Of a DNA stretch of 35,686 nt, positions 15,310 through 34,741 are shown piece by piece. The notes beneath the pieces are model-generated. The model searched no databases and was not told the DNA's origin. It saw nothing but the letters and a program-made list of their open reading frames with translations. The position numbers and the translations under genes are program-made. Every line of letters starts with the position of its first letter. Position 1 is the stretch's first letter. This DNA is from Planobispora longispora. Lineage in GTDB: Bacteria > Actinomycetota > Actinomycetes > Streptosporangiales > Streptosporangiaceae. The stretch spans positions 1-35,686 of the forward strand of contig NZ_BOOH01000078.1 of assembly GCF_016863135.1 (NCBI RefSeq), given 5' to 3'.

Positions 15310-15337
15310 CTCAGTTTCCCGGAACCCCCGCCGATGA
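15310..15337 (+). promoter_or_regulatory. Sigma-28-like promoter for chemoreceptor 1
   Basis: CTCAGTTT, 12 bases, then GCCGATGA. This resembles the FliA/WhiG consensus (TAAA-N15/16-GCCGATAA). The -10 element ends 56 bases before the GTG start. Confidence 0.75.
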
Positions 15338-15393
15338 ACATGGTGATCACGTGTACCGAAAAGGTCGGTCCGGTGGCGGTCTGAGGAGTAGCG

Positions 15394-16980
15394 GTGGAAG
15401 TCAACGGGGCCTGGCGGCTGCTTGCCGACCGCGGCATCATGACGAAGGTCTTCATTCCGGTGACGGTGCTGGGGCTGACCGCGGTGGTCACCGGCTCCGT
15501 GGCGCTGTCGAAGATGGACACGTTGCAGGAGGAGCACAACCTGCAGCTGGAGCACTCCGTCCCGTTCATCACCGGCCTGCAGGACGCGGCGGTGGCGGCC
15601 AAGGCGGCCGCCAACGACGAGCGCGGGTTCCTGCTGACCGGTGACGCCGCGTTCAGCGACGAGGTCTCCAAGCGGTTCACCGTGATCGACGACGCGCTGG
15701 AGCAGGCACGCGGCGCCGCCGTCTCCCCGGAGCAGAACACCCAGGTGGACGAGATCGCCGACGGCATCGACGCCTGGCAGGACGCCCTGTCGGCCGAGTT
15801 CACCCTCTACGCCACCGACAAGGCCACCGCGACCGAGAACGCCCTGGGCCCCAACCGCGACCTGCGCAAGGCCTACGAGGAGAAGCTGGACGCGGCCATG
15901 GAGGAGGCGACCGGCGCGCTCGCCGCCAGCGCCTCCTTCAACGAGACCGTCAGCTCCGCCCGCTTCGTCGTCACCCTCATCCTGATCCTCGGCATGCTCT
16001 GGGGCGTCCTCAGCGCGCTGATCGTCGCCAAGGTGATCACCGGCCCGCTCCGCTCGGTGGTCGGCGTGCTCAAGCAGGTCGCCAGGGGCGACCTGACCGG
16101 CCGGGCGCAGGTGCGCTGCAGGGACGAGATCGGCGAGATGGCCGGGGCGCTGAACGAGGCGATCGACGCCATGCGCGGAGCGCTGCGCACCATCGACAGC
16201 TCGTCGGACTCCCTGGCCAGCGCCTCGGAGGAACTGACCGCCACCAGCACCCAGATCGCCGCCAGCGCCGAGGAGACGAGCGTGCAGGCCGGTGTGGTCA
16301 CCGCCGCCGCCGACGAGGTCTCCCGCAACGTGGAGACGGTCGCCGCCGGCGCCGAGGAGATGGGCGCGGCGATCCGGGAGATCGCGCACAGCGCCAGCGA
16401 GGCGGCCAAGGTGGCCGCTCAGGCGGTGGCGGCGGCGCAGTCGACCAACGAGATCGTCGGCAAGCTGGGCACCTCCAGCGCCGAGATCGGCTCGGTGATC
16501 AAGACCATCACCTCGATCGCCGAGCAGACCAACCTGCTGGCCCTCAACGCCACCATCGAGGCCGCCCGCGCCGGCGACGCCGGCAAGGGCTTCGCGGTGG
16601 TCGCCGGCGAGGTCAAGGACCTGGCCCAGGAGACCGCCAAGGCCACCGAGGACATCGCCCGCCGGGTGGAGGCCATCCAGAACGACACCGGGGGCGCGGT
16701 GGAGGCCATCGCGGAGATCAGCCAGATCATCGCGCGGATCAACGACTACCAGCTGACCATCGCCTCGGCGGTGGAGGAGCAGACCGCCACCACCAACGAG
16801 ATGAACCGCAGCGTCGCGGAGGCGGCGGCGGGCTCCGGCCAGATCGCCGGCAACATCTCCTCGGTGGCCCACGCCGCCCAGACGACCAGCGGGAGCGTCG
16901 TCGACACCCAGCGCGCGGCCGAGGAACTCGCCCGCATGTCCACCGAGCTGCGGGCCGTGGTCGGACGCTTCTCCGTCTGA
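15394..16980 (+). CDS. Methyl-accepting chemotaxis protein 1 (four-helix ligand domain)
   Basis: 528 residues. Membrane helix 1 is about 18-37, an extracellular helical sensor (4HB/CHASE3-like, containing [11 protein letters not shown]) follows, and helix 2 is about 191-213. HAMP and a long cytoplasmic coiled coil come next, with the signalling tip [18 protein letters not shown] near residues 377-394. The protein ends [11 protein letters not shown], a tail shared with the other transmembrane receptors here. It would control a CheA/CheW complex not encoded in this window. The GTG start has GAGGAG 9 bases upstream. A 150-base part of the tip region is identical to chemoreceptor 2. Confidence 0.93.
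16507..16656 (+). repeat. 150-bp perfect inverted repeat, copy A (in chemoreceptor 1)
   Basis: Identical, base for base, to the reverse complement of 24527-24676 in chemoreceptor 2, including all synonymous positions. It encodes the receptor tip. Confidence 0.9.
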
Positions 16981-17305
16981 TCCGCCCAGGCTCTCCTCCA
17001 GACCGCCGGACCCCCTCCCCGGCGGTCCGCGAGCCGCCCAGGACCCCGTCCCGGGCGGCTCGTGTCGTTCCCGGCCGGGCCCGGCCGCGGGGGGCGGTAG
17101 CGGTTCGGTTGCCGTACGCCCCCGGCTCCCGGAGGAGGGCCCCCGGCTGCCGATCCTCCTGCCGAGGACGACCGCCGGACCCCCGACGATCCGTACGAGC
17201 CCTACGGCCGTCCCGGACCTGACACGCGCCGGCCCGGCGCGGAACCGGCGGAGCCCGACACGACGCGACCTCTCGTCTGTGCGGACCAAGAGAGGAAGCA
17301 TCACC
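16981..17305. other. Intergenic region between chemoreceptor 1 and the MFS gene
   Basis: 325 bases without a convincing gene. The first 80 bases hold two tandem terminator hairpins. The rest is very GC-rich, and I see no promoter of the CTCA-N16-GCCGAT type. A GAGAGGAAG ribosome site precedes the MFS GTG. Confidence 0.6.
17001..17062 (+). terminator. Two tandem hairpins after chemoreceptor 1
   Basis: GACCGCCGG (17001-17009) pairs with CCGGCGGTC (17019-17027), and CGAGCCGCCC (17030-17039) pairs with GGGCGGCTCG (17053-17062). Both stems are perfect, 9 and 10 bp. There is no U-tract, as is common in actinomycete terminators. Confidence 0.7.
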
Positions 17306-18739
17306 GTGTCCCGAACCCCCGACATGCTGCGGGCCCTGCGGCACCGTAACTACCGCCTGTGGGCGGGCGCGGACTTCCTGTCGGTGGCCGGAACCTGGAT
17401 GCAGGTCCTGGGCGTCAACTGGCTCCTGCTGTCGATCTCCCACTCGGCCACCAGCCTGGGCTTCGGCCTGTTCCTGCAGTCGCTCCCCACCCTGCTGCTG
17501 GCTTTCGCCGGCGGCTCCCTCGCCGACCGGCTGCCCGCCCGCCCGCTGGTGCTGACCGGGCAGGCCCTGCACGGGCTGCTCGCCCTGGCGCTCGCCGTCA
17601 TCGCCTTCGCCGGCGTGCAGAACGTCTGGCCGATCTACGCCGTCGCCCTGCTCGGCGGAATGGTGTCCGCCCTGGACGGCCCCGCCCTGGGGCGTTTCGG
17701 CGCGGAGGTCGTCGGCCCCGAGGACCTGTCCAACGGCCTGGCCCTCGGCTCGGTGATCAGCTCCGGCGGGCGCATCATCGGCATGGCGCTGGCCGGGGCG
17801 CTCATCCCGCTGACCGGCACCGGGACGCTCTTCCTGCTCAACGGGCTGAGCTTCGCGGGCGTCATCGCCGCGGTGCTGTGCATGCGCGCCGGCGAGATGC
17901 ACCCCCTGCCGCGCGCCCGGGCCGCGGAGGTCGGGATCACCGCGGGTCTGCGCTACATCTCCCGCACCCGCTGGCTGCTCGTCCTGCTCGGCATGGCCTT
18001 CGTCCTGGGCGCCCTGGGCCGCAACTACCAGGTCACCATGGCCGCGATGAGCGAGGGACCGCTGGCCGCCGGCGCGACCGGCTACGGCGTCCTGTCCGTC
18101 GTCTTCGCCGTCGGCGCCGTCCTGGGCGGCCTGTACGCGGCCTCCCGGCCCCGCCTGACGTTCCGGATCCTGTTCGCCGCCGCCCTGATCACCAGCGTGG
18201 GCCAGGCGATCAGCGGAATCGTGCCCGGCCTGCTCGGCTTCGCCGTCATGTTGCTGCCGATCGCCGCCGCGGCGGTGGTCCTCGACACGACCGTGAGCAC
18301 GCGCGCCCAGCTCGACACGGAGCCGACCATGCGGGGCCGCGTACTGGCCGCGCAGACGATGGTGGGAGCGGCCTCGGGCGCGGTCGGCGGCCCGGTGCTC
18401 GGGATGCTCTGCGACACCCTGGGGCCCCGCGAGGCCCTCGTCCTGGCCGGAGTGATCACCACCGTGGTGGCCTTCACCGCCGCCGTGCTGCTGGCGCGCT
18501 CGCTCGGGCGCACCTCCCCGGTCGCCGCCGCGATCGTCGCGCTGCGCGGTCCCGAGGGCATCCGAGGAATCCGGGGCCTGCGGGGCGTCCGGCGGCCGTC
18601 CCCGGCCGGCCCCGCCCGCCGTCCGGCGGTCTCCCGGAGTGTCCGGCCCGGAGACGCCCCGCGGGCCTCCAGGGCGCTCCCCCGTCCCGCCGTGCGCCGT
18701 TCCGCGCGCCGCATCCGACCGGAGAGGGCGCTGTTCTAG
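17306..18739 (+). CDS. MFS transporter (EntS-like drug or siderophore exporter family)
   Basis: 477 residues. Ten to twelve membrane helices fill residues 15-410, starting ALRHRNYRLWAGADFLSVAGTW, a typical opening of the DHA3/EntS-type MFS exporters. The first cytoplasmic loop carries GGSLADRLPAR, the family's motif A. The last 65 residues are an Arg/Pro-rich cytoplasmic tail with no recognisable domain, longer than usual. The GTG at 17306 is preferred over one at 17279, since GAGAGGAAG lies properly upstream. Substrate is unknown. It has no visible link to its motility neighbours and lacks their promoter motif. Confidence 0.85.
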   Translation: MSRTPDMLRALRHRNYRLWAGADFLSVAGTWMQVLGVNWLLLSISHSATSLGFGLFLQSLPTLLLAFAGGSLADRLPARPLVLTGQALHGLLALALAVIAFAGVQNVWPIYAVALLGGMVSALDGPALGRFGAEVVGPEDLSNGLALGSVISSGGRIIGMALAGALIPLTGTGTLFLLNGLSFAGVIAAVLCMRAGEMHPLPRARAAEVGITAGLRYISRTRWLLVLLGMAFVLGALGRNYQVTMAAMSEGPLAAGATGYGVLSVVFAVGAVLGGLYAASRPRLTFRILFAAALITSVGQAISGIVPGLLGFAVMLLPIAAAAVVLDTTVSTRAQLDTEPTMRGRVLAAQTMVGAASGAVGGPVLGMLCDTLGPREALVLAGVITTVVAFTAAVLLARSLGRTSPVAAAIVALRGPEGIRGIRGLRGVRRPSPAGPARRPAVSRSVRPGDAPRASRALPRPAVRRSARRIRPERALF

Positions 18740-18907
18740 GGCCGGGACAGGCCTTCGCGCGCGCCGTACCCGACCGGTGAGACCGGAGAGAGAACCGTAG
18801 AGCGACGATAGCTTTGTGAAGTTTTCTCATCACTCTGGGTATTCATGCTCCAAGTTCGGATGTTCCCAGATGGGCGGGCGCAGAAGTCCTTATAAGTCCG
18901 ATGAATC

Positions 18908-18935
18908 CTCATCCTTCCGCCCGATCTGTCGATAA
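18908..18935 (+). promoter_or_regulatory. Sigma-28-like promoter for the cheB operon
   Basis: CTCATCCT, 12 bases, then GTCGATAA. Same spacing as the other motility promoters, with one mismatch (GTC for GCC) in the -10. It ends 57 bases before cheB. Confidence 0.68.
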
Positions 18936-18992
18936 GGAGCGCGATGGACGGGCGGTGACAAAAGTCCCGCTTCTGGCACAGGAGGCACTCGC

Positions 18993-20072
18993 GTGGTATC
19001 AGTTCTGGTGGTCGACGACTCGGTCGTCGTCCGGCGTCTGATTGTCGACGCGCTGAGTGAGGATCCTGGCATCCAGGTGGTCGGCACCGCGCCCAACGGC
19101 AAGGTGGCCCTTTCCAAGATCGACATGTTGAAGCCGGACATCGTCACGCTCGACATCGAGATGCCGGTCATGGACGGTCTGACCACCATCAAGGAGATTC
19201 GGAAGGTCCACCCTCGCCTCCCGGTCATCATGTTCAGCACGCTGACCTCGGTCGGCGCGTCGGCCACCCTGGAGGCCCTGGCCTCGGGCGCCAGCGACTA
19301 CGTGACCAAGCCGGCCAACGTCGGCAGCGTCGCGGAGTCGATCAAGAGCGTGCGGGAGCAGATCATCCCCCGCATCTACGCGCTGTGCAAGGTCGGCGCT
19401 CCGGCACGCGGGGCCGTCAGGCCCGCCCCCTCCGCCCCGGTCTCGCTGGCCCGCACGCCCGCCGGCGGGGCCGGCGCGCCCCAGATCGTGGCCGTGGGAT
19501 GCTCCACCGGCGGTCCGGACGCCCTGTCCAAGGTGGTCAGCGCGCTCCCTGCGACGTTCCCGCTGCCGATCGTGGTGGTGCAGCACATGCCGCAGGTGTT
19601 CACCAAGATGTTCGCCGAGCGGCTCGACCGCGCCGCGCGGCTGAAGGTCGTCGAGGCCCAGGCCGGCATGCCGGTGCAGGCCGGAACGGTGTACATCGCG
19701 CCCGGCGACTACCACATGGAGGTCGTACGGCGCGGCGGCGGCGTCTCCACCAACCTGCAGCAGGGACCGCCCGAGAACTTCTGCCGCCCCGCCGTGGACG
19801 TGCTGTTCCGCTCGGTCGCCGCGGTGTACGGCGGAGCGACCCTGGCCGTGATCCTGACCGGGATGGGCCAGGACGGCAAGCGCGGCAGCGAAGGGCTGGT
19901 GGCGAAGGGGGCCGAGGTCGTCGCCCAGGACGAGGCCACCTCGGTGGTCTGGGGCATGCCCGGAGCCGTCGCCACCGCGGGACTGGCCCACTCCGTTCTC
20001 CCGCTGAACGAGATTTCCAACCATCTAATCAACCGTGTGGCCGGCGGCCGCACGGCCAGGTCCCGAGGATGA
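18993..20072 (+). CDS. cheB: Chemotaxis response regulator / protein-glutamate methylesterase CheB
   Basis: 359 residues. The receiver has VVDDS, phospho-acceptor Asp54 (TLDIEMPVMDG) and Lys107 (YVTKPAN). A Pro/Ala linker leads to the methylesterase domain with the catalytic triad Ser171 (VGCSTGGP), His198 (VVQHMP) and Asp294 (GMGQDG). It removes methyl esters from receptor glutamates, and may deamidate glutamines, when phosphorylated by CheA, giving adaptation. The start is GTG after GGAGG. It is the first gene of a six-gene operon and lies 4 bases before cheR. Confidence 0.96.
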   Translation: MVSVLVVDDSVVVRRLIVDALSEDPGIQVVGTAPNGKVALSKIDMLKPDIVTLDIEMPVMDGLTTIKEIRKVHPRLPVIMFSTLTSVGASATLEALASGASDYVTKPANVGSVAESIKSVREQIIPRIYALCKVGAPARGAVRPAPSAPVSLARTPAGGAGAPQIVAVGCSTGGPDALSKVVSALPATFPLPIVVVQHMPQVFTKMFAERLDRAARLKVVEAQAGMPVQAGTVYIAPGDYHMEVVRRGGGVSTNLQQGPPENFCRPAVDVLFRSVAAVYGGATLAVILTGMGQDGKRGSEGLVAKGAEVVAQDEATSVVWGMPGAVATAGLAHSVLPLNEISNHLINRVAGGRTARSRG

Positions 20073-20076
20073 CCCG

Positions 20077-20922
20077 ATGGCTCTAACCCAACAGGAGTTC
20101 GCCTTCGTAAGCGGGCTCGTCCGGCGCGAGGCGGCGATCGTCCTCGAACCAGGCAAGGAATATCTGGTAGAGGCGCGGCTGCTGCCTCTGGCCCGGCGGA
20201 CCGGCACCGTCTCGGTGTCGGAGTTCGTCGCGCGGGCCCAGCGGGAGCGCGCGCTCGCCGACCAGATCGTCGACGCTCTGACCACCAACGAGACGTCGTG
20301 GCTGCGCGACCGTGAACCGTTCAGCGCGTTCACCGACGTCGTGCTGCCCGACCTGATGGAGCGCCGCTCCCCGACGCAGAAGCTGCGCGTCTGGTCGGCG
20401 GCGTGCTCCAGCGGGCAGGAACCGTACGGCCTGGCCATGCTGCTCGAGGAGAACCTCAGGAACAGCATGCAGTACGAGATCATGGCGACCGACATCTCCA
20501 CCGAGATGCTGGAGCGCGCCAAGACCGGCCGCTACAGCCAGCTGGAGGTGAACCGGGGACTGCCCGTCCCCATGCTGGTGAAGTACTTCCAGCGGGCGGG
20601 CACGGAATGGCAGGCGAGCGACTCCCTGCGCCGCAACGTCTCCTTCCAGAAGGTGAACCTGGCGGCGCCCCTGCCGCCGGTCCAGCCCTTCGACGTGGTG
20701 TTCCTGCGCAACGTCCTGATCTATTTCGACCTTGAGACCAAGCGCTCCGTGCTGCGGCGCATCCGCAGCCTGATGCGCCCTGACGGCTGGCTCTTCCTCG
20801 GTGCAGCCGAGACCACCATCGGCATCGACGACGGCTACGAGCGAGTCGTCGCCGGACGCGCGTCGGCATACAGGCCGCGCGCCGCGACCACTGCGCCCAT
20901 CAGCGCGACAAGGAAGGGGTGA
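20077..20922 (+). CDS. cheR: Chemotaxis protein methyltransferase CheR
   Basis: 281 residues. The N-terminal helical domain contains the family motif NETSWLRD (71-78). The SAM-binding fold begins VWSAACSSGQEPYGLAM, and the later FDVVFLRNVLIYFD motif completes the MTase core. It methylates receptor glutamates using S-adenosylmethionine, opposing CheB. The ATG at 20077 is four bases beyond the cheB stop, though its ribosome site is weak; coupling through cheB is likely. A C-terminal tail of about 20 residues is basic and low complexity. Confidence 0.95.
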   Translation: MALTQQEFAFVSGLVRREAAIVLEPGKEYLVEARLLPLARRTGTVSVSEFVARAQRERALADQIVDALTTNETSWLRDREPFSAFTDVVLPDLMERRSPTQKLRVWSAACSSGQEPYGLAMLLEENLRNSMQYEIMATDISTEMLERAKTGRYSQLEVNRGLPVPMLVKYFQRAGTEWQASDSLRRNVSFQKVNLAAPLPPVQPFDVVFLRNVLIYFDLETKRSVLRRIRSLMRPDGWLFLGAAETTIGIDDGYERVVAGRASAYRPRAATTAPISATRKG

Positions 20923-20927
20923 CCACC

Positions 20928-21317
20928 ATGCCTACAGCTATGGTGATCGATGACAGCCGGGCGATGCGCCTCATTCTGCGTCGCATTGTCACGCAGCTGG
21001 GCTTCGAGGTGCAGGAAGCCGGCAACGGCAAGGAAGCTCTGGATCTGCTGGAAACACTGGATCCAGTGCCTCAGGTGGCGCTTATCGACTGGAACATGCC
21101 GGAGATGAACGGACTGGAGTTCGTCTCGGCGGTCCGCTCCCAGGAGCGGTTCCGGCAGATGACCCTGATGATGGTGACCACGGAGAGCGAGCACGGGCAG
21201 ATCGTCCGCGCCCTCGCCGCCGGGGCGCACGAGTACGTCATCAAGCCCTTCACGCCTGAGGCCATCGCAGAGAAGCTGGCCCTCCTGGGCCTCGTACCGA
21301 GCGGAACCATGTCATGA
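20928..21317 (+). CDS. cheY: CheY-type response regulator 1
   Basis: 129 residues, a single receiver with VIDDS, phospho-acceptor Asp54 (LIDWNMPEMNG), Thr84/Thr85 and Lys106 (YVIKPF). CheY-P would bind the flagellar switch. The ATG at 20928 is preferred, with AAGGAAGGGG eight bases upstream; a GTG at 20919 overlapping the cheR stop would add three residues. Its stop overlaps the next gene (ATGTCATGA). The following gene encodes a CheC/CheX-type phosphatase. Confidence 0.92.
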   Translation: MPTAMVIDDSRAMRLILRRIVTQLGFEVQEAGNGKEALDLLETLDPVPQVALIDWNMPEMNGLEFVSAVRSQERFRQMTLMMVTTESEHGQIVRALAAGAHEYVIKPFTPEAIAEKLALLGLVPSGTMS

Positions 21318-21775
21318 CCTCACCCACGATCGACGATCTCCAGGCCATCACCGAGCAGGTCTGGCTGTCCTACCTCGACCCCGAGGGGGTCACGCCCTTC
21401 CTCCCGTCGGAGCAGGGCCCCGGCATGCCCTGCGTGATCGCGACGGTCTCCGTGACGGGCGCCTGGGACGGGCACGTCGTCATGTCCTTCTCCCAGAAGG
21501 CCTCGCGGCTGTCGGCCTCGGCCCTGCTGGGCATGGAGGAGGAGGAGGTCTCCGTCGACGACGTCGCCGACGCGGTCGGCGAGCTCGTCAACGTGATCGG
21601 GGGGAACGTCAAGAGCCTTTTGCCTGACGGTTCCCTGCTCTCCCTCCCCCACGTGGCCACAATCGACGAGGGCGTCAACAAGTGGCCCGCCGCGGTCGAG
21701 GTTTGCCGTCTGCAGGGCAGCTGGCAGAACGAGCCGATTGCGATCACCGTGTTGACCAGCAAGAGCTCTGGGTAA
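21314..21775 (+). CDS. cheX: CheC/CheX-family CheY-P phosphatase 1
   Basis: 153 residues. Central helix DAVGELVNVIGGN contains the phosphatase pattern ExxN...N (Glu90, Asn93, Asn98), the residues that act on phospho-Asp in CheC/CheX/FliY proteins. There is one such helix, as in CheX, not two as in CheC. The likely role is to dephosphorylate a CheY, terminating the signal. It overlaps cheY-1 by four bases, pairing it with that regulator. Confidence 0.82.
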   Translation: MTSPTIDDLQAITEQVWLSYLDPEGVTPFLPSEQGPGMPCVIATVSVTGAWDGHVVMSFSQKASRLSASALLGMEEEEVSVDDVADAVGELVNVIGGNVKSLLPDGSLLSLPHVATIDEGVNKWPAAVEVCRLQGSWQNEPIAITVLTSKSSG

Positions 21776-21789
21776 GGAGACCTCACATC

Positions 21790-22152
21790 ATGAAGATTCT
21801 CATCGCAGACGACAGCCGGGTCATGCGTCAGATCGTCACACGCACCCTGCGGCAGGCCGGTTTCAGCGGGCACGAGCTCATCGAGGCGGCCGACGGCCGT
21901 GAGGCGCATGATCTCGTCATCGCCCAGAAGCCCGACCTGGTGCTCTCAGACTGGAACATGCCCGAAATGACCGGCATTGAGGTTCTGCGGGCGCTGCGAG
22001 CCGGCGGGGTGGACGTGCCGTTCGGGTTCGTCACCTCCGAGGGCACCGACGAGATGCGGAAGATGGCTGAGGAGGCCGGTGCGCTCTTCCTGATCACCAA
22101 GCCGTTCACCGCGGACAACTTCACCGACGTCCTCGGTCCGATCCTGGGGTAA
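21790..22152 (+). CDS. CheY-type response regulator 2
   Basis: 120 residues, a single receiver with IADDS, phospho-acceptor Asp54 (LSDWNMPEMTG), Thr82 and Lys104 (LITKPF). The DWNMPEM loop matches cheY-1, so the two are close relatives. The start ATG has AAGGAGA upstream. It lies between two CheX-like genes. Either regulator could be the switch-binding CheY, with the other acting as a phosphate sink; the sequence does not decide this. Confidence 0.9.
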   Translation: MKILIADDSRVMRQIVTRTLRQAGFSGHELIEAADGREAHDLVIAQKPDLVLSDWNMPEMTGIEVLRALRAGGVDVPFGFVTSEGTDEMRKMAEEAGALFLITKPFTADNFTDVLGPILG

Positions 22153-22161
22153 AGGCCTGCC

Positions 22162-22641
22162 ATGTCGACACTTCCGGTCCCGAAGGACGTCAAGGACCTG
22201 TTCGAGGATATGCTCGGCCGCCCCGTCACGGTGGGCGTGACCGACCCCGCGGTCGCCGCCGACCTGAACAAGGCGGTGGTCGCCCTCTACGTCGACAACG
22301 CACGCAAGCTGACAGCTGTGGTGGGCATGGACCTGAAACTGTCCTCCTTCGCGGGGGCGGCCATCGGCCTGATCCCGCAGGGCGGCGCCGAGGCGTCCAT
22401 CGAAGACGGTGAGCTGACCCCGATGCTGGCGGACAACGTCAGAGAGGTCTGCAACATCATCACCGGCCTGCTCAACCAGCTCGACCTGCCCCACCTGAAG
22501 CTCTACGAGGCGTACATGCCGGGACAGGCCGCCCCCACGGACGCCACGGCCCGCCTGCTGGCCCTCGGCGCCCGCCTCGACCTGGTGGTCGAGATCGGCG
22601 GGTACGGCAAGGGCAAGTTCTGGCTCTCCCTGGCCGGCTGA
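22162..22641 (+). CDS. CheC/CheX-family CheY-P phosphatase 2
   Basis: 159 residues, diverged from the first CheX-like protein but with the same type of helix: NVREVCNIITGLLN, giving Glu95, Asn98 and Asn105. Family membership in the CheX-type phosphatases is supported by this pattern, the size and the operon position. It starts ten bases after cheY-2 and is the last gene before a strong terminator. Confidence 0.78.
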   Translation: MSTLPVPKDVKDLFEDMLGRPVTVGVTDPAVAADLNKAVVALYVDNARKLTAVVGMDLKLSSFAGAAIGLIPQGGAEASIEDGELTPMLADNVREVCNIITGLLNQLDLPHLKLYEAYMPGQAAPTDATARLLALGARLDLVVEIGGYGKGKFWLSLAG

Positions 22642-22682
22642 TCGGCCCGCAGCCCGGCCGGACAGGGAGTCTCAACTCCAAG

Positions 22683-22712
22683 GCGCCGTCCCCTCCCGCG
22701 AGGGGGCGGCGC
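22683..22712 (+). terminator. Terminator hairpin at the end of the cheB operon
   Basis: GCGCCGTCCCCTC pairs with GAGGGGGCGGCGC: a 13-bp stem (one G-T pair) and a CCGC loop. No U-tract follows. Confidence 0.8.
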
Positions 22713-24160: not shown

Positions 24161-24162
24161 GC

Positions 24163-25824: not shown

Positions 25825-25852
25825 TCATCGGCACTCATCCTCGACAGTTGAG
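25825..25852 (-). promoter_or_regulatory. Sigma-28-like promoter for chemoreceptor 2
   Basis: On the minus strand: CTCAACTG, 12 bases, GCCGATGA. The whole promoter lies between the receptor start and the stop of the PAS receptor gene; its -35 overlaps a hairpin. Confidence 0.75.
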
Positions 25853-25871: not shown

Positions 25872-26966
25872 TCAGTTTCGGCCGGTCACCGCGGCGTCGG
25901 CGACCTCGGTGAGCCGGGCGGACTGGTCCCTCAGCTTCTCGGCGGCGGTGAGCACGGTCTCGGCGGCCTGGGCCGCCGCCTGACCGGCGCCCGCGACCGT
26001 GGCCATCCCGCGTGACATCTCCGCGCTGGTGGCGCTCTGCTCCTCCACCGCCGCGGCGATCAGCGTCTGCTGCTCGGCGACGGCGTCGATCAGGCTGGCG
26101 ATGCCGGAGATCCCGGCGGCGGCCTGGGTGCTCTCCGCCTGGATGCCGTCGATCATGTCGGTGATCTGCGCGGTCGCCTCCGCCGTACGGGCGGCCAGGT
26201 CCTTGACCTCGCTGGCCACGACCGCGAAGCCCTTGCCCATCTCGCCGGCGCGGGCCGACTCGATGGTGGCGTTCAGGGCGAGCAGCTTGGTCTGCTCGGC
26301 GATCTCGGTGATCAGCTTGGTGATGCTGCCGATCTGCCGGCTGGACTCCTGCAGCTGCTCCATCCGGCGCGTGGCGTCGCGCGCGGACTCCACCGCCGTC
26401 GCGGTGCTGGCGGCGGCGCTGCTGACTCCCTGGGAGATCTCCTGGATGCTCCCGGTCAGCTCGGTGGAGCTGTGCGAGACGGTCTCCGCCTGGCTCGCGC
26501 TGTCGCCGGCGGTGCGCGCCAGCTCGTCGCCGGCCTCGGCCAGGAGGGCACTGGTCGCGACGAGCTCCTGGCTCAGGGTCCGCACGGCCTGGTCGCCGCG
26601 TACCCGCTCCGTGGCGTCCTCCCAGGTCACGATGTATCCGCCGGGAATCCGGTCGAAGCCCAGCGACCCGTAGGTCGTCGCGCCGTCGACCTCCAGGTTG
26701 GACAGCGCGGTGTACGGGAAGGAGGACGCCTTGCGCAGGTGGGTCTTGAGGCTCTCGGCCAGCATCATCAGCGCCTCGATCCCGTAGGCGGCGACCGTGT
26801 CCTGCATGAGCTTGTCGGCCGCCTGGTTGCGGTACAGGACGTCGCCGGTCTCGTTGACGATCAGCAACACCGCGGGGGCCTTGTCCAGCGCCGCCATCAG
26901 CGCCTCGCGGGACTGCAGCGCCGGATGGACGTCCGTGCCTGCCCGACGGGACCGCCACCATTTCAT
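25872..26966 (-). CDS. Soluble PAS-domain chemoreceptor
   Basis: 364 residues with no membrane segment, so cytoplasmic. A PAS-like domain at about 22-120 ([22 protein letters not shown] ... [13 protein letters not shown]) is joined to a short receptor signalling domain. The tip reads [18 protein letters not shown], with Lys227 where the other receptors have Asn (QTN). The C-terminal VxRF tail is missing. The ATG at 26966 is preferred: GAGGAG lies eight bases upstream and a promoter sits just before it, so in-frame extensions further upstream could not be transcribed. It may sense an intracellular redox, ligand or energy signal; no cofactor residue is evident. Confidence 0.88.
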
Positions 26967-26998: not shown

Positions 26999-27026
26999 GA
27001 ATCGGCGGCATCGGCCCGGAACTGAG
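26999..27026 (-). promoter_or_regulatory. Sigma-28-like promoter for the PAS chemoreceptor
   Basis: On the minus strand: CTCAGTTC, 12 bases, GCCGATTC. The -10 ends 32 bases before the start codon. A second GCCGAT lies within the spacer. Confidence 0.75.
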
Positions 27027-27049: not shown

Positions 27050-28144
27050 TCAGCCGATGCCCGCCGCCGAGCACGCCTCGGCGTAGGCGCCGGCGCACAG
27101 CGCGCCGGGGGTGACGTAGCCGTCCCGGATCACGGTCTCCTCGATGTTGTCCTTGGTGACGGTGACCGGGTCGAGCAGCAGGGACGGCACGCCGCCGGCG
27201 CCGTTGTCCACGCTGCCGCCGACCTCCGGACGCCCGCCGCGGAGCAGTTCGAAGGCCAGCTCGGCGGTCTTCTCCGCCTCCAGGCGCACCGCCTTGTACA
27301 CGGTCATGTGCTGGCTGCCGGCGAGGATGCGCTGGAGCGCGGCGACCTCGGCGTCCTGCCCGGTGACCGGCACGGCGGGCAGCCCGGCGGCGCGCATCGC
27401 CTTGATCGCGCCGCCCGCCGTGCCGTCGTTGGCCGCGTAGACGCCGACCAGCTCACGCCCGCCCAGGGACTTCAGCGTGCGCGCGGTCCACGCCTCGGCG
27501 TTGGCGGGGTCCCACTCGGGGGTGTCGAACTCGGCGGCGACGCGGACCTCGCCGTCCAGGGTCTCGTGCGCGCCCTTCTTGAAGAGGGTGGCGTTGTTGT
27601 CGGTCGGCGAGCCGTTGATCCACAGGATCTCTCCGGTGCGGGCCCTGCCGCCCAGCGCGGACAGCAGCGCCTCGGCCTGCAAACGGCCGACCTTCGCGTT
27701 GTCGAAGGAGACGTAGTAGTCGACGGGCGTGCCGAGCACCAGGCGGTCGTAGGAGACGACCGGCACGTCGCGGTCGTGGGCCAGTTCGACGATCTTCGCG
27801 GCGGCGGTGCTGTCGACGGGCGTGAGCACCAGGACCTTGGCGCCCTCCGCCAGGGCGTCCTCGGCCTGGGAGAGCTGCTCGGCGGCGTCCTGGCCGGCGT
27901 TGCGGTAGTCGATCTCGCAGGCGGGGCAGAGCTGCTTGAGCCGCTGAGAGAAGTACGGCGCGTCCGCCGCGTCGTAGCGGCTCGCGGCCCGCTCGGGCAG
28001 CAGCAGCGCCACCCGGCCTGAGGGCTTGGCGGCGGCGGCCGCGTCGTCGCCGCCGGACCCCGGCAGGATGCCGCAGCCGGTCAGGACGGCGCCCGCGACC
28101 ACGGCGGCCGTCACCGCGGCCGCCACACGTCGGTATGTGCGCAT
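27050..28144 (-). CDS. Sugar-binding lipoprotein (XylF/ChvE-like periplasmic binding protein)
   Basis: 364 residues. A lipoprotein signal with lipobox LTGC (Cys24) is followed by a two-lobed Peripla_BP_4 domain: [63 protein letters not shown] and VTGQDAE. These are characteristic of xylose/glucose-type ABC binding proteins. No ABC permease or ATPase is nearby. It lies between two chemoreceptor genes, 72 bases downstream of chemoreceptor 3 without its own motility-type promoter, so it is probably co-transcribed with that receptor. A role as a docking co-receptor for sugar taxis is an inference; an orphan transport component is the alternative. Confidence 0.88.
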
Positions 28145-28216
28145 TGTCGTCTCCGTTCGGGGGCCGGCGGTCGGCCGGGCCGGTAGGTGAGGCCGGATAC
28201 GGCCGCCGGTGGGTGA

Positions 28217-29878
28217 TCAGTAGGTGAAGCGGGACACGAGCGTGCGCATCCGCGCGGCCATGCCCGCGAGCTCCCCGACGGCGTCGGTGGTGCTGTCCAC
28301 GCCCTGGCCGGTCAGGAGGGTGGCGGCGGCGACGCCGCCGATGTTGGCGGCGATGCCGCTGGAACCGGCGGCGGCCTCGGAGACGCTGTGGCTCATCGTC
28401 TGGGTGGTCGCCGCCTGCTCCTCGACGGCGGCGGAGACGGTCTCCTGGAACTGGCTGATCTGCGTGATCACCTCGGTGATCTCGCTGATCGCGCGGACCG
28501 CGGCGTCGGTGTCGGACTGGATGGCCTGCACCCGGCGGCCGATGTCCTCGGTGGCCTGCGCCGTCTCCTGGGCCAGTTCCTTGACCTCGGAGGCGACGAC
28601 CGCGAAGCCCTTGCCGAACTCGCCCGCCCGGGCGGCCTCGATGGTGGCGTTGAGGGCCAGCAGGTTGGTCTGCTGCGCGATGGAGGTGATGGTCTTGACG
28701 ACGTCGCCGATCTCGGCGCTGGAGGCGCCCAGCTGGCCGATGGTCTCGTTCGCCGAGGCCGCGATGTCCACCGCCCGGGCGGCGACCTGGGTCGCCTCGG
28801 TCGTGTTGCGGGCGATCTCCTGGATGGAGGCGCCCATCTCCTCGGCGCCGGCCGCGACCGCCGCCACGTGCGAGCTGACCAGGTCCGCGGCGTCGACGAC
28901 CCCGTCGGCGCGGCCGGAGGCGTCCTGCGCGCTGGACTTCATCTGGCTGCTGATCGCCGACAGCTCCTCGGCCGCGGCGGCCAGCGACTCGGAGTTCTCC
29001 CCGAGGGTGCGGACGGCGTCGCGGGTGCTGGCGGTCGCGACCGACAGCGCCATGGCCATCTCGCCCACCTCGTCGCGCTGCACGGACTCCACCTGCGCGG
29101 TGAGGTCGCCCGCGGCCACGGCCTGCAGGACGTCGTGCACGCGCCGGATCGGCCGGACGATCAGGCCGGAGATGTAGCGGCTGAGCGCGAGGGCGACGCC
29201 CAGCCCGGCCACCAGGGCCACGATCATGACGGTGCGCGCCGTGTCGTGCGCCGACCGCGCCTCGGCCGCCGCGGCGGCGCCGCTGGCCTGCTCGTACCGG
29301 AGCAGCTCGTCCAGGGCGGTCATCGCGTTGGCGCTGGTGATCTGCCCGTCACCGAGGTAGGCCTGCTGGAACGCGGCCCGGTCGCCGGACTCGGCCAGGG
29401 GCAGGAGCCGGTGCTCCAGGATGGCGTGGTAGGCCGACCACCAGATGTCGAACCGGTCGACCAGCTCCCGCTGGGCGGCCTCGTCCACCGAGGCGCGGTA
29501 GGTCTCCAGCGCCTTCCCGAGCTGCTCGCCGGCCGTGTCGATCTCGTCGCGGAAGGACGTCCTGGCGACCTCTCCGTCGGACAGGGCCACGTTCGCGATG
29601 CCGTTCTGGACGCGCAGCGCCGCCGAGTTGATCATCGTCAGCTGGGCGGACGGCTCCAGGTTGCCGCGGTGGATGTCCTCCACGCGCTGGTCGACGCTGC
29701 GGAGCCCGGACAGGCCGACCGCCGCCACGACCGCCGCCGCGGAGCAGCCCAGCGCCACCAGCAGCAGCAGCTTGCGCGAGATGGGCATGTTCGCCACGAT
29801 CCGCAGCTTCCCGCCACGGGCCTCGTCCTCCGGTGACCCAGCCGTCGGCGTGGTCACCTCGCCGGAGATGTCGCTCAT
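28217..29878 (-). CDS. Methyl-accepting chemotaxis protein 3 (four-helix sensor)
   Basis: 553 residues. A cytoplasmic N-terminal extension of 35 residues precedes membrane helix 1 (about 37-57), a 4HB_MCP-like sensor with a DLVDRF-style helical pattern, and helix 2 (about 214-234). HAMP follows, then the signalling domain with tip [18 protein letters not shown]. It ends [11 protein letters not shown]. The ATG at 29878 has AAAAGGGG upstream. It probably forms an operon with the downstream sugar-binding lipoprotein, a natural ligand carrier. Confidence 0.93.
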
Positions 29879-29930
29879 CGGCGCCGTACCCCTTTTCGAT
29901 CATCGCCGGCATCCGTGCGCGGCTGCTGTG

Positions 29931-29958
29931 CGATCGGGTGTCAGGGGCGCCGGCTGAG
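29931..29958 (-). promoter_or_regulatory. Sigma-28-like promoter for chemoreceptor 3
   Basis: On the minus strand: CTCAGCCG, 12 bases, CCCGATCG. The -10 is the weakest of the set, but spacing and position are the same. Confidence 0.6.
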
Positions 29959-30049
29959 AGTTTCCTCGTGTGGGATCGGCCACCCGGCGACCCGGCCAGG
30001 ACACGACTGGGCAACGGCGATCGGATCCGGCTAATCCTCACCCGGTTCC

Positions 30050-30153
30050 TGCCGATCGGGGGCACGAGATCGCCGGGGCCCGTACCGGCTGAGCCGCGCC
30101 GTGCCGATCGGGGCACGAAGATCGCCGGAGTCCCCACCGGCCGAGCCGCGCCG
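30050..30153. repeat. Tandem pair of imperfect 52-bp repeats
   Basis: 30050-30101 and 30102-30153 align end to end, each beginning TGCCGATCGGGG and ending GAGCCGCGCCG. They differ by a few substitutions and one offset indel pair. They sit between the divergent promoters of chemoreceptor 3 and flhA. Confidence 0.75.
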
Positions 30154-30212
30154 CGCCCGCTGGGTGCCGCGGCCCTTCGCCATGCCTTTTTTCTCGATTG
30201 CCGGTGAAAAAC

Positions 30213-30240
30213 CTTAAGAGGTTCCCGGGGCGGCCGATGG
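30213..30240 (+). promoter_or_regulatory. Sigma-28-like promoter for the flhA operon
   Basis: CTTAAGAG, 12 bases, GCCGATGG. The -35 deviates (CTTA for CTCA); spacing is the same. It ends 78 bases before the TTG start. Confidence 0.6.
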
Positions 30241-30318
30241 GAGAGGTCGCCAGGACGGCATGCGTGGTCACGGAGCAGACCTGCGGAATCGTTCCATGCC
30301 AGAAGCGGAGGGGGCATC

Positions 30319-32361
30319 TTGCCCAAGGGCCTGAGCCAGCTGGCCGTTCCGATCGGCGTCGTCATGATCGTCGTGATGATGGTCGTCCCGATGCCGACGG
30401 TCCTGCTCGACATGCTCATCGCCGCCAACATCACGATCGCCCTGATCGTGGTCGTGGTCAGCATGAACGTGAAGAGGCCGTTGGAGTTCTCCTCGTTCCC
30501 CGCACTCCTGCTCGTCCTGACCCTGTTCCGGCTGGCGCTGAACATCAGCGCGACCCGGCTCGTGCTGGTCGACGGCTACGCCGGGAAGGTCATCGAGGCC
30601 TTCGGCCACTTCGTCGTCGGCGGCTCCCTCATCGTCGGAATCGTGATCTTCACGATCCTGATCATCATTCAGTTCATCGTCATCACCAAGGGCGCCGAGC
30701 GCGTCGCCGAGGTCGGCGCGCGCTTCACCCTCGACGCCATGCCCGGCAAGCAGATGGCCATCGACGCCGACCTCAACGCCGGTCTCATCGACGAGGCCGA
30801 GGCGCGCAAGCGCCGCCACGAGGTCACCGCCGAGGCCGACTTCTACGGCTCGATGGACGGTGGTTCGAAGTTCGTCAAGGGCGACGCCATCGCCGCCATC
30901 ATCATCACCGTCATCAACCTCCTCGGCGGGTTCGCCGTCGGCGTGTTCCAGAAGGGCATGCCGGCCGGCGAGGCCATCCAGGCCTACAGCCTCATGAGCA
31001 TCGGTGACGGCCTGGTCTCCCAGATCCCCGCCCTGCTGCTGTCGGTCGCGACCGGCCTCATGGTCGCCCGGGCCAGCGGCGAGGGCGACATGGGCACCAC
31101 GGTGACCAGCCAGCTCGGCGCGCAGAAGCGCGCGCTGCAGGTCGGCGGCGGCGCCGCCCTGGCCCTGGTCCTGATCCCGGGCCTGCCCAAGCTCCCCTTC
31201 CTCGTCATCGGCGGCATCGTCCTGTTCCTCGCCCAGCGGGTGCCCTCCGCACCGGACCAGCAGGCCGAGGAGACCGAGACCGCGATCGCCGGCCCGGCGC
31301 CCGACTCGCCCGAGTCGCTCATGGGAGAGATCCGGGTCGACCCGCTGGAGCTGGCGCTCTCCCCCGACCTCGTCGACCTGGTCGAGGCCGCCGGCGGAGA
31401 CCTGCTCGACCGGGTGCGCGCGCTCCGCCGGAAGATCGCCATGGAGACCGGCGTCATCATGCCGCCGGTGCACACCCGCGACGACCTCGACCTGCCCCTG
31501 TCGACCTACGTGATCCGCGTCAACGGCGTGGAGGTCGCCCGCGGCCAGGCCCCGCCCGGCACCGCGCTGGCCATCGGCGAAGGGCTGGAGGGCCTGCCGG
31601 GCCGCGCCGGCCAGGAGCCGGTGTTCGGCCTGGAGGGCAAGTGGATCCCCGCCGAGCTGCGGCACCAGGCGGAGCTCCTCGGCGCGACGGTGGTCGACCG
31701 GGCATCGGTCATCATCACCCACCTGTCGGAGGCGGTGCGCTCCAACGCGGGTCGCCTGCTGGGCCGCGAGGACGTCCGCGCGCTGGTCGAGGCCGTACGG
31801 CGCACCCACCCGGTCGTGGTGGAGGAGCTCACCCCGGCGCTGATGGGCCTGGGACAGGTTCAGACGGTGCTGCAGGCCCTGCTCGACGAGGGCGTGTCCA
31901 TCCGGGACCTGGTGCGCATCTTCGAGGCCCTCTCGCTGGCCGGGAAGAACACCTCGGACCCCGACGCGCTCTGCGAGGCCGTCCGCAACGCGCTGGGACC
32001 GGCCATCGCCGCCCAGCACGCCGAGCCGGCCGGAAGCCTGCCGGTCCTGACGCTGGACCCGAGGCTGGAGAACGCGCTGCTGGAGTCGCTGCGCCCCACC
32101 GACCAGGGCGTGCAGATCCTCATCGACCCCGTCCGGGCCGAGAGCCTGATCACACAGGCGAGCAGGCTCGCCGACAACGCCGAGCAGCAGGGGGTCGCCC
32201 CCGTCCTGGTCTGCTCACCCCAGCTGCGGATGCCGCTGCGCCGGCTGCTGAAGCTGGCCGCCCCCCGACTGCCCCTGCTGTCCTACACCGAAATTGCGGA
32301 ATGCCCGTTCCGCGTGGAAACCCTGGGAGTTGTGACCGATGCCGAAGCGCTTGCTGCTTGA
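30319..32361 (+). CDS. flhA: Flagellar export apparatus protein FlhA
   Basis: 680 residues, normal length for the family. Seven to eight membrane helices fill residues 5-310. The cytoplasmic FHIPEP loop has the signature RRHEVTAEADFYGSMDGG and KFVKGDAIA. The C-terminal cytoplasmic half (about 330-680) is the export-gate domain that docks chaperone-substrate complexes. It is an inner-membrane component of the flagellar type III export gate. The TTG start has GGAGGGGG four bases upstream. Its end overlaps the flhF-like gene by 23 bases. No other export genes (flhB, fliP, fliQ, fliR) are in the window. Confidence 0.97.
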   Translation: MPKGLSQLAVPIGVVMIVVMMVVPMPTVLLDMLIAANITIALIVVVVSMNVKRPLEFSSFPALLLVLTLFRLALNISATRLVLVDGYAGKVIEAFGHFVVGGSLIVGIVIFTILIIIQFIVITKGAERVAEVGARFTLDAMPGKQMAIDADLNAGLIDEAEARKRRHEVTAEADFYGSMDGGSKFVKGDAIAAIIITVINLLGGFAVGVFQKGMPAGEAIQAYSLMSIGDGLVSQIPALLLSVATGLMVARASGEGDMGTTVTSQLGAQKRALQVGGGAALALVLIPGLPKLPFLVIGGIVLFLAQRVPSAPDQQAEETETAIAGPAPDSPESLMGEIRVDPLELALSPDLVDLVEAAGGDLLDRVRALRRKIAMETGVIMPPVHTRDDLDLPLSTYVIRVNGVEVARGQAPPGTALAIGEGLEGLPGRAGQEPVFGLEGKWIPAELRHQAELLGATVVDRASVIITHLSEAVRSNAGRLLGREDVRALVEAVRRTHPVVVEELTPALMGLGQVQTVLQALLDEGVSIRDLVRIFEALSLAGKNTSDPDALCEAVRNALGPAIAAQHAEPAGSLPVLTLDPRLENALLESLRPTDQGVQILIDPVRAESLITQASRLADNAEQQGVAPVLVCSPQLRMPLRRLLKLAAPRLPLLSYTEIAECPFRVETLGVVTDAEALAA

Positions 32362-33652
32362 GGGAACCGACATCGAGGAGCTGCTGACCCAGGTTCGCAA
32401 TGAGCATGGGCCGGACGTCTCCATCGTGTCGGCCGACCGGGTTCGCACCGGCGGATTCGCCGGGTTCTTCGCCCGCCAGCGTTACGAGCTGACCGTCGAG
32501 GTCAACGACGAGCCCGTCCGCCCGGCGCAGAGCTCCGCGCCCGCCCCGGCGCAGAGCCTCGCGGCGGCCCCGGCCGCCGAGCCGGTCTCCGCCGACCCGG
32601 TGGCCGCGCTCCTGGCCCGCGCCGAGGAGCAGGAGCGGCGGCTGGGCGCGTCCGTCGCCGGCCAGGACGCCGCCCGCCCGGTCGCCGTGGGCGCCCACAA
32701 GGGGCTCGTCCCCGCCGCCGCCGGCCTGGGCCAGACCGCCTCGCAGACCTTCCCCGCCCCCTCCGCCGTGGCGCAGGCCGTGCCCTTCCAGGCCCCCGCG
32801 GCCGCGTCCGAGAACTTCGTCGTCGAGTCCGGCGCGGAGAGCATGGCCTTCGCCGACATGCTGAAGGCGCTCCAGCGCGACGGCGCCGCCGCCCGCTCCA
32901 GCGCCCTGGTGGCGCGGACCTACCAGCCGCCGGCCGTCATCGAGGAGGAGCCCTCCGCCGGCGCGGTGCGCTCCTTCCAGGCGCCCGTCATCGAGCAGAA
33001 GCGGCCCTTCGTGCAGGGGCTGATCGAGCTCGGCATGCCCGAGGGCATGGCCCGCAAGGCCACCGAGTCCGACATGTACGGCGCGGTCAAGAACGCCCTG
33101 GCCGACCTGCCCGACGCCCCCGGCCTGCCGGGCAACCCCGGTGACGTGCTCGTCATCGTCGGCGAGGTCCACACCGCGCTCCGGCTGGCCAAGAAGGTCG
33201 CGCGCATCCTGAACGTGGGCGCCGGTCAGATCCTGCTGGCGGCCCGCTCCACCGCGGGCACCGACATCCACACCTCCCGCCGCCTGTCCGGCCCGCGGGC
33301 CGCCGCCCAGAAGGCGCGCAAGATCCACCGCGACGACGTGCCGTACGTGGTCGTCGTCGCCTCCACCCCCGAGGAGCGCAACGGCGAGTGGGCCGCCTCG
33401 GTCGCCGACTCGCTCGGCGCCACCGCCGTGTGGGCGGTCGTCGACGCGACCCGCAAGACCGCCGACACCGCGCGCCACCTGCGCTCGCTCGGCAAGGTGG
33501 ACGCCATCGCGGTCAACGCCGTCGAGGCCACCGGCGACCCGGCCAGCGTCCTCCACCTGGACCTGCCCGTCGCCTACCTGGAGGACCGCCCCGCCGGCCG
33601 CCAGGCGTGGACCGCGCTGCTGTGCGAGCGACTGGAGGGGATGGAGCTGTGA
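32339..33652 (+). CDS. flhF: FlhF-like protein with degenerate GTPase P-loop
   Basis: 437 residues. The first 55 residues match the FlhF B-domain (KRLLLEGTDIEELLTQVRNE, GPDVSIVSADRVRTGG). A Pro/Ala-rich linker and a helical N-domain lead to a C-terminal SRP-GTPase-like fold. In place of the P-loop GPTGVGKTT there is GEVHTALRLAKKVAR (275-289): the Lys and Gly residues needed for nucleotide phosphate binding are gone. I see no DTAGR and no TKxD motif, although secondary-structure-like blocks such as VPYVVVVAS and TAVWAVVDATRK remain. FlhF normally sets flagellar position and number through GTP-driven dimers. This copy is probably nucleotide-independent. Identity rests on the N-terminus and position after flhA. 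Confidence 0.75.
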   Translation: MPKRLLLEGTDIEELLTQVRNEHGPDVSIVSADRVRTGGFAGFFARQRYELTVEVNDEPVRPAQSSAPAPAQSLAAAPAAEPVSADPVAALLARAEEQERRLGASVAGQDAARPVAVGAHKGLVPAAAGLGQTASQTFPAPSAVAQAVPFQAPAAASENFVVESGAESMAFADMLKALQRDGAAARSSALVARTYQPPAVIEEEPSAGAVRSFQAPVIEQKRPFVQGLIELGMPEGMARKATESDMYGAVKNALADLPDAPGLPGNPGDVLVIVGEVHTALRLAKKVARILNVGAGQILLAARSTAGTDIHTSRRLSGPRAAAQKARKIHRDDVPYVVVVASTPEERNGEWAASVADSLGATAVWAVVDATRKTADTARHLRSLGKVDAIAVNAVEATGDPASVLHLDLPVAYLEDRPAGRQAWTALLCERLEGMEL

Positions 33653-34287
33653 GGTCCGTCCGCCTGCCCGATGTCAACGCGCTCGTGGAGCTCTCCCTGC
33701 CGGACGGCAGGTCCTATCCCACGCGCGTGGAGGACGCCGACGGGCTCGTGATCAAAGTGGCCGCACCGCGCGGCGTCGGCGACATCGACGTGCCGGTGCT
33801 GGGCAGCGCGGTGTCCCTGCACTGGACCGGCCCCCGCGGCCTCTACACCGCGCCCGGCACGCTCGCCGCGATCGAGCGCGACCGGGTCACCCTCTGGGCC
33901 GTCGAGGCCGACGGCAACGTGGACTACTACAGCCGGCGCACCGCCGTACGGGTGGCCGCCGGCGAACCGATCCGGCTGCTGGACCTCGCCGAGGGATCGG
34001 AGGTCTTCCACGGGCGGTTCGTGGACATCTCCGAGCGCGGCGTCCGCTGCCACGGGGCGGCGGCAGGGCTCTCCGTCGAGCAGCCCGTGCTGGTCAAGAT
34101 GGTGCTGGACAACAACCTCCTGGCCCTGGAGGGCAGCGTGCTCACCGTGAGCGATCCCGAAGGGGACGACGTCACCACGGTGGTCATCTACGACCCGCCG
34201 GACGCCCAGGCGCAGGTGATCCGGCGTTACGTGCTCAATGCGCAGATCCGAGCGAGGAAGGCGGCCGCCGACAGTGCTGCTGGTTAA
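33649..34287 (+). CDS. PilZ-domain protein (YcgR-like flagellar brake)
   Basis: 212 residues. An N-terminal YcgR-type beta domain (about 5-92) is followed by a PilZ domain with the c-di-GMP-binding pattern SRRTAVR (95-101) and VDISERG (125-131, DxSxxG). Both required motifs are intact. YcgR proteins slow or reverse flagellar rotation when bound to c-di-GMP. The GTG start overlaps the flhF-like stop (GTGA), placing it in the flhA operon. The GGDEF-EAL protein at 12762 is a potential source of the nucleotide. Confidence 0.87.
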   Translation: MRSVRLPDVNALVELSLPDGRSYPTRVEDADGLVIKVAAPRGVGDIDVPVLGSAVSLHWTGPRGLYTAPGTLAAIERDRVTLWAVEADGNVDYYSRRTAVRVAAGEPIRLLDLAEGSEVFHGRFVDISERGVRCHGAAAGLSVEQPVLVKMVLDNNLLALEGSVLTVSDPEGDDVTTVVIYDPPDAQAQVIRRYVLNAQIRARKAAADSAAG

Positions 34288-34648
34288 CCCACTCACCTTG
34301 CTGATCGCCCTGGTCCTCGACGCTCCGGCGCTGTGGCACGCGTTCGTGCTGGAGGACCTCGACATCGCCACCGCCCTGGTCCGGTACCTGCTGGCCGTCC
34401 TCGTGAGCGGTCTCATGCTCTCGGTGGTCCGCCGCGTCACGGCTCCGTACGTGCAGGCAGACGACGGGAAGGCCGTGGAAGGCACGGTCACGACCCTCTC
34501 GGTCGACCGGGTGCCGCCCGGTGGCAGGAGGATGACCGACGCCGCCGATCCGGAGGCCGGTCCGGAGCTCCTGGAGCTCGAACCGACGCAGATCCAGTCC
34601 CCGCGGGCCGAAGTCGCCGCGCTTCCCCCGGCGGTCGCCGCCGAGTGA
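34274..34648 (+). CDS. Small membrane protein of unknown function, 124 aa
   Basis: 124 residues. Two hydrophobic helices at about 4-20 and 34-54 (LVRYLLAVLVSGLMLSVV) are followed by a cytoplasmic acidic tail. The GTG start at 34274 overlaps the PilZ gene by 14 bases, so it is co-translated with it and is the fourth gene of the flhA operon. I do not recognise the family. By context it could be a flagellar assembly or PilZ-associated membrane factor, but nothing in the sequence shows this. Confidence 0.65.
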   Translation: MLLVNPLTLLIALVLDAPALWHAFVLEDLDIATALVRYLLAVLVSGLMLSVVRRVTAPYVQADDGKAVEGTVTTLSVDRVPPGGRRMTDAADPEAGPELLELEPTQIQSPRAEVAALPPAVAAE

Positions 34649-34713
34649 CCCGTTGAGGGATCGTTCACTGATCGGTTGATCAGGTGATCCGGCTATCGGT
34701 GTGCCGTGAACGC

Positions 34714-34741
34714 CTCACTTCGAGGTGTGGGGTGCCGATTG
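34714..34741 (+). promoter_or_regulatory. Sigma-28-like promoter for chemoreceptor 4
   Basis: CTCACTTC, 12 bases, GCCGATTG, ending 68 bases before the GTG start. Confidence 0.72.

Follow-up and report, generated by a model that had tools for sequence, protein, structure and literature searches.

Planobispora forms swimming spores, and the genes that would equip these spores are considered here against the systems described in other actinobacteria. Planomonospora and Spirillospora are spore-sac genera with swimming spores according to the available part of PMC12691653, and in Actinoplanes 136 genes rise 100-fold or more as spore sacs form, among them 29 flagellar, 4 pilus, 9 chemoreceptor, and 2 chemoreceptor-like genes, tcrA, hhkA, and fliA2 (PMC11960193, in the sections available). 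WhiG-like flagellar sigma factors of Actinoplanes direct flagellar and pilus genes, whilst 12 promoters have been mapped for the WhiG of Rubrobacter, 5 of them before enzymes of cyclic dimeric GMP (c-di-GMP), with type IV pilus genes also in the set (PMC8325347, in its available part). Here we describe a promoter-like element, CTCA-N16-GCCGAT, that recurs before motility genes in a 35,686-base stretch of Planobispora longispora DNA (the window; contig NZ_BOOH01000078.1, one of the 120 contigs of the 8.84 Mb genome). We consider it likely that this element belongs to a cascade in which a TcrA-like regulator acts on fliA, and FliA in turn on a regulon for swimming spores. The elements would be promoters for FliA (sigma-28), of which the genome has only one, and this factor is predicted to bind them, to start transcription there, and so to drive directly the rod, C-ring, motor, export gate, and hook-filament genes, the che genes, and most chemoreceptor genes, along with numerous GGDEF (c-di-GMP) genes and an operon for type IV pili. 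The fliA gene itself would probably be activated by a TcrA-like response regulator, one acting in spore-sac development, through a triple GCAACCG repeat ~100 nucleotides (nt) upstream, and motility would thus be built during spore formation without WhiG.

The genome-wide search proposed in the initial annotation of the window returned 67 exact CTCA-N16-GCCGAT sites, 41 with a purine next and 26 with a pyrimidine. Spacings of N14 to N18 gave 126 exact matches in all, and the four wrong spacings (N14, N15, N17, and N18) therefore hold 59, a mean of 14.75, with a Poisson p of ~3e-23 for the excess at N16; the spacing lengths were transcribed manually, using the 100 of these 126 matches that were listed. 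The N16 sites also differ in placement, with 28 of the 67 in intergenic DNA ≤250 nt upstream of a called gene, 29 inside genes, and 10 elsewhere, compared with 6 upstream, 18 inside genes, and 16 elsewhere for 40 wrong-spacing sites drawn from the 53 such sites listed (28/67 against 6/40 upstream, one-sided p = 0.003). Genes were called with a home-made caller, whose starts may be off. Judged by sequence signature, none of the six upstream wrong-spacing sites precedes a chemoreceptor or GGDEF gene. Wrong spacings were used as the yardstick in place of reversed-pattern counts, which were dropped since patterns that contain TAG are uncommon in DNA of this kind. The GCCGAT-type -10 element stands at a fixed distance from the -35 element, as is characteristic of FliA promoters, with few N15 and N17 forms.

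The genes behind the element are likewise those expected of a FliA regulon, with flagellar and chemotaxis genes lying downstream. The genome has 17 matches to the MCP signalling domain and 23 to GGDEF, one of the latter weak, with genes callable for 21 of the 23. An N16 site with at most one mismatch lies within 130 nt upstream of 14/17 chemoreceptor genes and 10/21 GGDEF genes, compared with 0/109 control genes, and within 350 nt the respective counts are 14/17, 14/21, and 1/98; the control genes are not random, being taken from six sigma-gene loci and from the loci retrieved for wrong-spacing sites, with chemoreceptor and GGDEF genes excluded. The three remaining chemoreceptor genes comprise two with two-mismatch sites and one fragment, and the seven remaining GGDEF genes two with an N17 form and five without a site, whilst three further chemoreceptor genes, cut by contig ends and outside the 17, have exact sites. 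Exact sites are also found upstream of cheA, fliM, and motA (343 nt away for motA), a one-mismatch site before a flgB-type rod operon, and a GCCGAA form before flgN-flgK, and a site is carried by a type IV pilus operon headed by a PilB-type ATPase gene, the rest of this operon having been read by eye. Upstream of fliA itself, no N16 site with ≤1 mismatch was found in the loci scanned. Further sites precede ilvB, alpha-amylase, CHAP, GH25, and protease-inhibitor-type S8-like genes, which we do not claim as members.

Within the window, all seven elements initially reported are present with the one spacing ascribed to them, the 16 bases from CTCA to GCCGAT being equivalent to 12 between octamers, and each of the five chemoreceptor genes is preceded by a site, as had been claimed. 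Four of the seven are exact: 15310-15335 (+), before the chemoreceptor gene at 15394-16980 (+; MCPsignal, HAMP, and CHASE3) and kept in 5/5 relatives; 25827-25852 (-), before that at 24203-25786 (-) and kept in 3/4; 27001-27026 (-), before that at 25872-26966 (-; MCPsignal, without a HAMP match) and kept in 4/4; and 34714-34739 (+), before that at 34810-35685 (+), which is cut by the contig end, and kept in 3/3. The remaining three have one mismatch. A GTCGAT variant at 18908-18933 (+), found in 3/5 relatives and likewise as GTCGAT in all three, precedes cheB, cheR, a receiver gene, cheX, a second receiver gene (by eye), and an unnamed gene (18993-22641, +), a unit in which no internal N16 site with ≤1 mismatch was found. 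A CCCGAT variant at 29933-29958 (-), kept in 3/3 relatives, precedes the chemoreceptor gene at 28217-29878 (-), after which comes a Peripla_BP_4 binding-protein gene (27050-28144, -), and a CTTA variant at 30213-30238 (+), kept in 6/6 relatives and reading CTCA in five, precedes flhA, an FlhF-like gene, a PilZ gene, and an unnamed gene (30319-34648, +). The belief that no other operon in the window has such an element does not stand, as an eighth N16 site, the window's fifth exact one, occupies 7670-7695 (-) and is followed at a distance of 86 nt by an M10-like (matrixin) protein gene (6663-7583, -; Pfam PF00413, E 4e-7; N-terminus hydrophobic by eye), and is found in 3/3 relatives with the gene, once exactly and twice with one mismatch. 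Over spacings of 8 to 26, the window has five exact matches at N16 and a single one at both N10 and N22, the 16 further spacings being empty. The extended form CTCANTT occurs five times in the genome, four of these in the window, and 0-3 times in each of five relatives. The FlhF-like gene (32339-33652) matches FlhF over residues 8-102 only, with no GTPase domain in Pfam.

Of the 33 orthologue-relative pairs compared for the eight promoters in the window, 30 keep an N16 site (≤1 mismatch), mostly at a near-equal distance to the gene and with drifting spacer letters; some of the orthologues, paired as reciprocal best matches, share no more than 50-67% identity and could be paralogues. A lone one-mismatch match, in one relative each, was also seen for two further window genes. 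The flgN-flgK site is present in P. longispora and in 8/8 relatives (five exact to CTCA-N16-GCCGA[TA], three with one mismatch), and the N16 form before fliC is exact in loci L073 and L080 and has one mismatch in L074. The 4-mer found most often 16 nt ahead of GCCGA[TA] is CTCA, at 33/100 in Planobispora-type fliA loci, where some stretches are present twice, and 93/225 in those of Nocardioides type, with the flanks favouring CTCAGG and GCCGATGGG. Spacing, gene sets, and conservation bear out the resemblance to FliA/WhiG-class promoters, common to the motility genes, that had been noticed in the window.

The proposed link to development lies upstream of fliA, which is head to head with flgN and flgK. 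Alignment of nine flgN-fliA intergenic sequences reveals that eight share a near-invariant GCAACCG-n4-GCAACCG-n3-GCAACCG, the sequence of Actinomadura hibisca being degenerate; this alignment, like that of the gsmA region discussed below, rests on few, related genomes. The TcrA box of Actinoplanes is given as nnGCA(A/C)CCG-n4-GCA(A/C)CCGn in the available part of PMC12691653, and an exact box lies 97-113 nt before fliA in 8/8 distinct genomes of Planobispora and Planomonospora (from 10 loci that include two duplicates), compared with 0/59 other fliA loci, mostly of Nocardioides, one of which has a box with two mismatches. Two-mismatch boxes arose in 40 of 1400 shuffles, and none arose with fewer mismatches. 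Each of two partial fliA copies of Spirillospora albida, at contig ends (L135 and L137), has a one-mismatch box, whilst the locus of this species in the wider comparison reaches just 30 nt upstream and was uninformative. In the P. longispora genome the loose pattern has 27 matches, five of which are strict boxes, and three of these five have a third unit: that before fliA, that before the C23 GGDEF gene, where the third unit has one change and the gene has no FliA site, and that at 12059-12087 in the window.

The window copy (12059-12087, +) is a triple 11-base-pair (bp) repeat, GCAACGG/GCACCCG/GCAACCG, with one change in its first unit and an exact TcrA box match in its last two (12070-12087), and is kept in P. 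longispora and in 3/3 relatives compared. Downstream is a gsmA-like gene with a glucosaminidase domain (12121-12765, +, from a putative start), for which NCBIfam model NF038016, run on 12295-12765, gives 241.1 bits against a cut-off of 240, over model positions 165-316 of 316 only. GsmA is a spore-maturation hydrolase. A GGDEF-EAL gene (12762-15248, +) without a FliA-type site also lies behind this TcrA-like box. Divergent from the gsmA-like gene are a histidine kinase, placed by the gene caller to start at 11742 and by conservation probably at 11925, and a PhoB-type response regulator (together 10028-11925, -). The response regulator (10028-10753) is 87-99% identical in three relatives and, since PhoB-type regulators bind 11-bp tandem repeats, is a candidate reader of the box, and no more than a candidate. 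Between the kinase gene and the box, the block ATAGCGATTCACCCCAAACTGAACGTTATCAACCC (11977-12011) is almost invariant in four genomes and is perhaps the promoter of the kinase-regulator pair.

The alternative that survives best holds that these are plain FliA motility promoters without developmental input, with an unrelated regulator reading the GCAACCG repeat and fliA controlled as in unicellular motile actinobacteria. Nocardioides-type loci do have the same FliA element, the binder of the box is known only as a candidate, and the box is rare in the genome, so that a large TcrA-type regulon is not seen. However, the box is identical to the published consensus of the spore-sac regulator (available part of PMC12691653), the fliA loci examined that have its exact form are all from Planobispora or Planomonospora, and it also precedes the gsmA-like spore gene. 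We therefore regard control of fliA without developmental input as unlikely, and a link to sporulation through the TcrA-box-like repeat, one step above the promoter, as plausible on these grounds.

The initial annotation had favoured WhiG, the sporulation sigma factor, as the reader of the promoters, tying swimming to sporulation. WhiG and the flagellar sigmas share one promoter class in the available text of PMC8325347, and the FliA-like and WhiG-like groups adjoin in our tree. Nevertheless, only one sigma factor in this genome's assembly comes close to the FliA/WhiG model (at 187 bits, against 118 for the second), with the runner-up and the third being SigB/SigF-like by eye, and no second FliA/WhiG-type sigma was found there. 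This sigma is 93% identical to the FliA of Planobispora rosea and 46-65% identical to FliA-like rows outside its close kin (53-65% for all but one full-length row), compared with 33-38% for WhiG-like rows. The FliA-like group (21 rows), to which our sigma belongs, and the WhiG-like group fall on opposite sides of a branch with a Shimodaira-Hasegawa-like approximate likelihood ratio test (SH-aLRT) support of 100, in a quick tree with a flagged long branch (a PDB FliA) and with group names assigned from pairwise identities. Five sampled genomes carry both types. Against the WhiG equivalog model our sigma reaches 141.5 bits, far below the cut-off of 343, and it also falls outside the WhiG-like group. 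The single genome of Nocardioides sp. SR21 holds several FliA-like genes that are partial or divergent (L098, L131, L136, and L138).

The distribution of the two sigma factors leads in the same direction. FliA was detected at E 1e-30 in 8/200 genomes of the family, all eight of which have FlhA, searched in these eight only. Of 393 genomes of the class searched with a Streptomyces WhiG query, 137 gave a match at E 1e-28, and WhiG-level scores occurred across many families. For the family of P. longispora, whose share of the 393 is given only in part, seven genomes by comparison matched at E 1e-32 to 1e-37, which is FliA level, the six with a known position being fliA, and no WhiG-level match was present for the Streptosporangiaceae genomes sampled among the matches listed. 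Many members of this family sporulate. The same CTCA-N16 element is found at fliA loci of Nocardioides, a genus not known, to our knowledge, to form spores, so that the promoter alone says nothing on sporulation. Given the single sigma, its placement in the FliA clade, the FliA-level scores of the family, and the failed WhiG model, WhiG is very unlikely and the sigma reading the elements is most likely FliA. The proposal of a WhiG-driven regulon is thus largely refuted, and of the suggested tie between swimming and sporulation, the route through the promoter and WhiG falls away, whilst that through the repeat upstream of fliA is retained as plausible. Just as unlikely is the notion that in the motif we see chance, or some feature of GC-rich DNA other than a promoter, such as an operator, which can draw on the 29 exact sites in coding DNA and on a modest window excess at ≤2 mismatches (80 matches, with a mean of 50.0, sd 7.1, and a largest count of 70 in 100 shuffles) and is rendered scarcely credible by the spacing specificity, the gene-set enrichment, and the footprints with a drifting spacer.

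Several results weigh against the proposed cascade, with FliA beneath a TcrA-like regulator. The 29 exact sites within genes and the 10 elsewhere are probably chance. Two GGDEF genes (L247 and L256) carry an N17 form 41 nt before the start, one with one mismatch, and fliC in L075, L076, and L079 has only an N15 TTCA form (≤1 mismatch), so the N16 spacing is not absolute. Three of the 33 orthologue-relative pairs lack a site, namely cheB in 2/5 relatives and one chemoreceptor gene in 1/4. An MFS gene (17306-18739) has no site here and a site in four relatives (three N16, one N17); in those relatives the three N16 sites are exact and the sites lie 140-170 nt upstream, corresponding to window region 17050-17306. 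The score of the FliA protein against TIGR02479, the best NCBIfam model among the matches listed, falls just short of the cut-off (186.6 against 189.6 bits). A search for the anti-sigma factor FlgM found none, the best match having E 0.38 and 14.6 bits against a cut-off of 25, which fits the absence of FlgM from later actinobacterial classes stated in the available part of PMC10746217. The -35 element is CTCA, as in Nocardioides-type loci, rather than the TAAA that is canonical for the FliA class (PMC8325347, available part). Finally, the box of Actinomadura hibisca has two mismatches, a level that the shuffles reached, and the TcrA-like identity of the box-binding protein, together with the time at which it would act, is an unproven prediction.

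Compared with the described systems, the regulon most resembles that of Actinoplanes missouriensis zoospores, with FliA1-3 and TcrA, in grouping flagellar, pilus, and chemoreceptor genes and in having a TcrA box of the same sequence. It differs in having one FliA instead of three (PMC13293333, available part), in that no WhiG was found in the assembly whereas WhiG is present in Actinoplanes (PMC8325347, likewise), in belonging to another order, the Streptosporangiales, and in the GGDEF genes that carry the promoter (14/21). This likeness therefore suggests the same kind of system, here built on a single sigma, without WhiG, and with a broad branch for c-di-GMP. The FliA consensus of Actinoplanes is reportedly CTCA(N15-17)GCCGAA. 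With the WhiG set of Rubrobacter the regulon shares a flagellar-clade sigma acting before type IV pilus and c-di-GMP enzyme genes, the difference being a WhiG with -35 TAAA in Rubrobacter and a FliA with -35 CTCA, and flagella, here. Streptomyces WhiG belongs to the same sigma clade at large and uses the same -10 element; in contrast to P. longispora, where no WhiG orthologue was found, Streptomyces has in WhiG a factor dedicated to sporulation, not motility (PMC8325347, available part).

A broader scheme, which we offer tentatively as possible rather than probable, is that spore-forming Streptosporangiaceae have no WhiG and link spore formation with swimming in two steps. A TcrA-type regulator, perhaps that at 10028-10753, would act on fliA, on gsmA, and on a pair of GGDEF genes by way of triple 10-11-bp repeats. 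FliA would then act on the flagellum, the pili, most chemoreceptor genes, and most GGDEF genes, and the motility sigma would reset c-di-GMP in the spore.

Among the titles listed in the literature searches, whose lists were capped and covered few subscription journals, none dealt with the FliA or TcrA of either Planobispora or Planomonospora. A 2023 survey describes the Streptosporangiales as without flagella (PMC10746217, available part), a statement that does not hold for these genera. In an order so surveyed, the guess at WhiG becomes a testable cascade, for which the boxes and the eight window promoters provide exact bases for mutation. The analysis suggests that both early and late flagellar genes are here driven by FliA, with no FlgM that can be recognised, and that the same promoter serves 14/21 GGDEF genes. 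It further points to a parallel, in a different order, to the control that development exerts over swimming spores in Actinoplanes.

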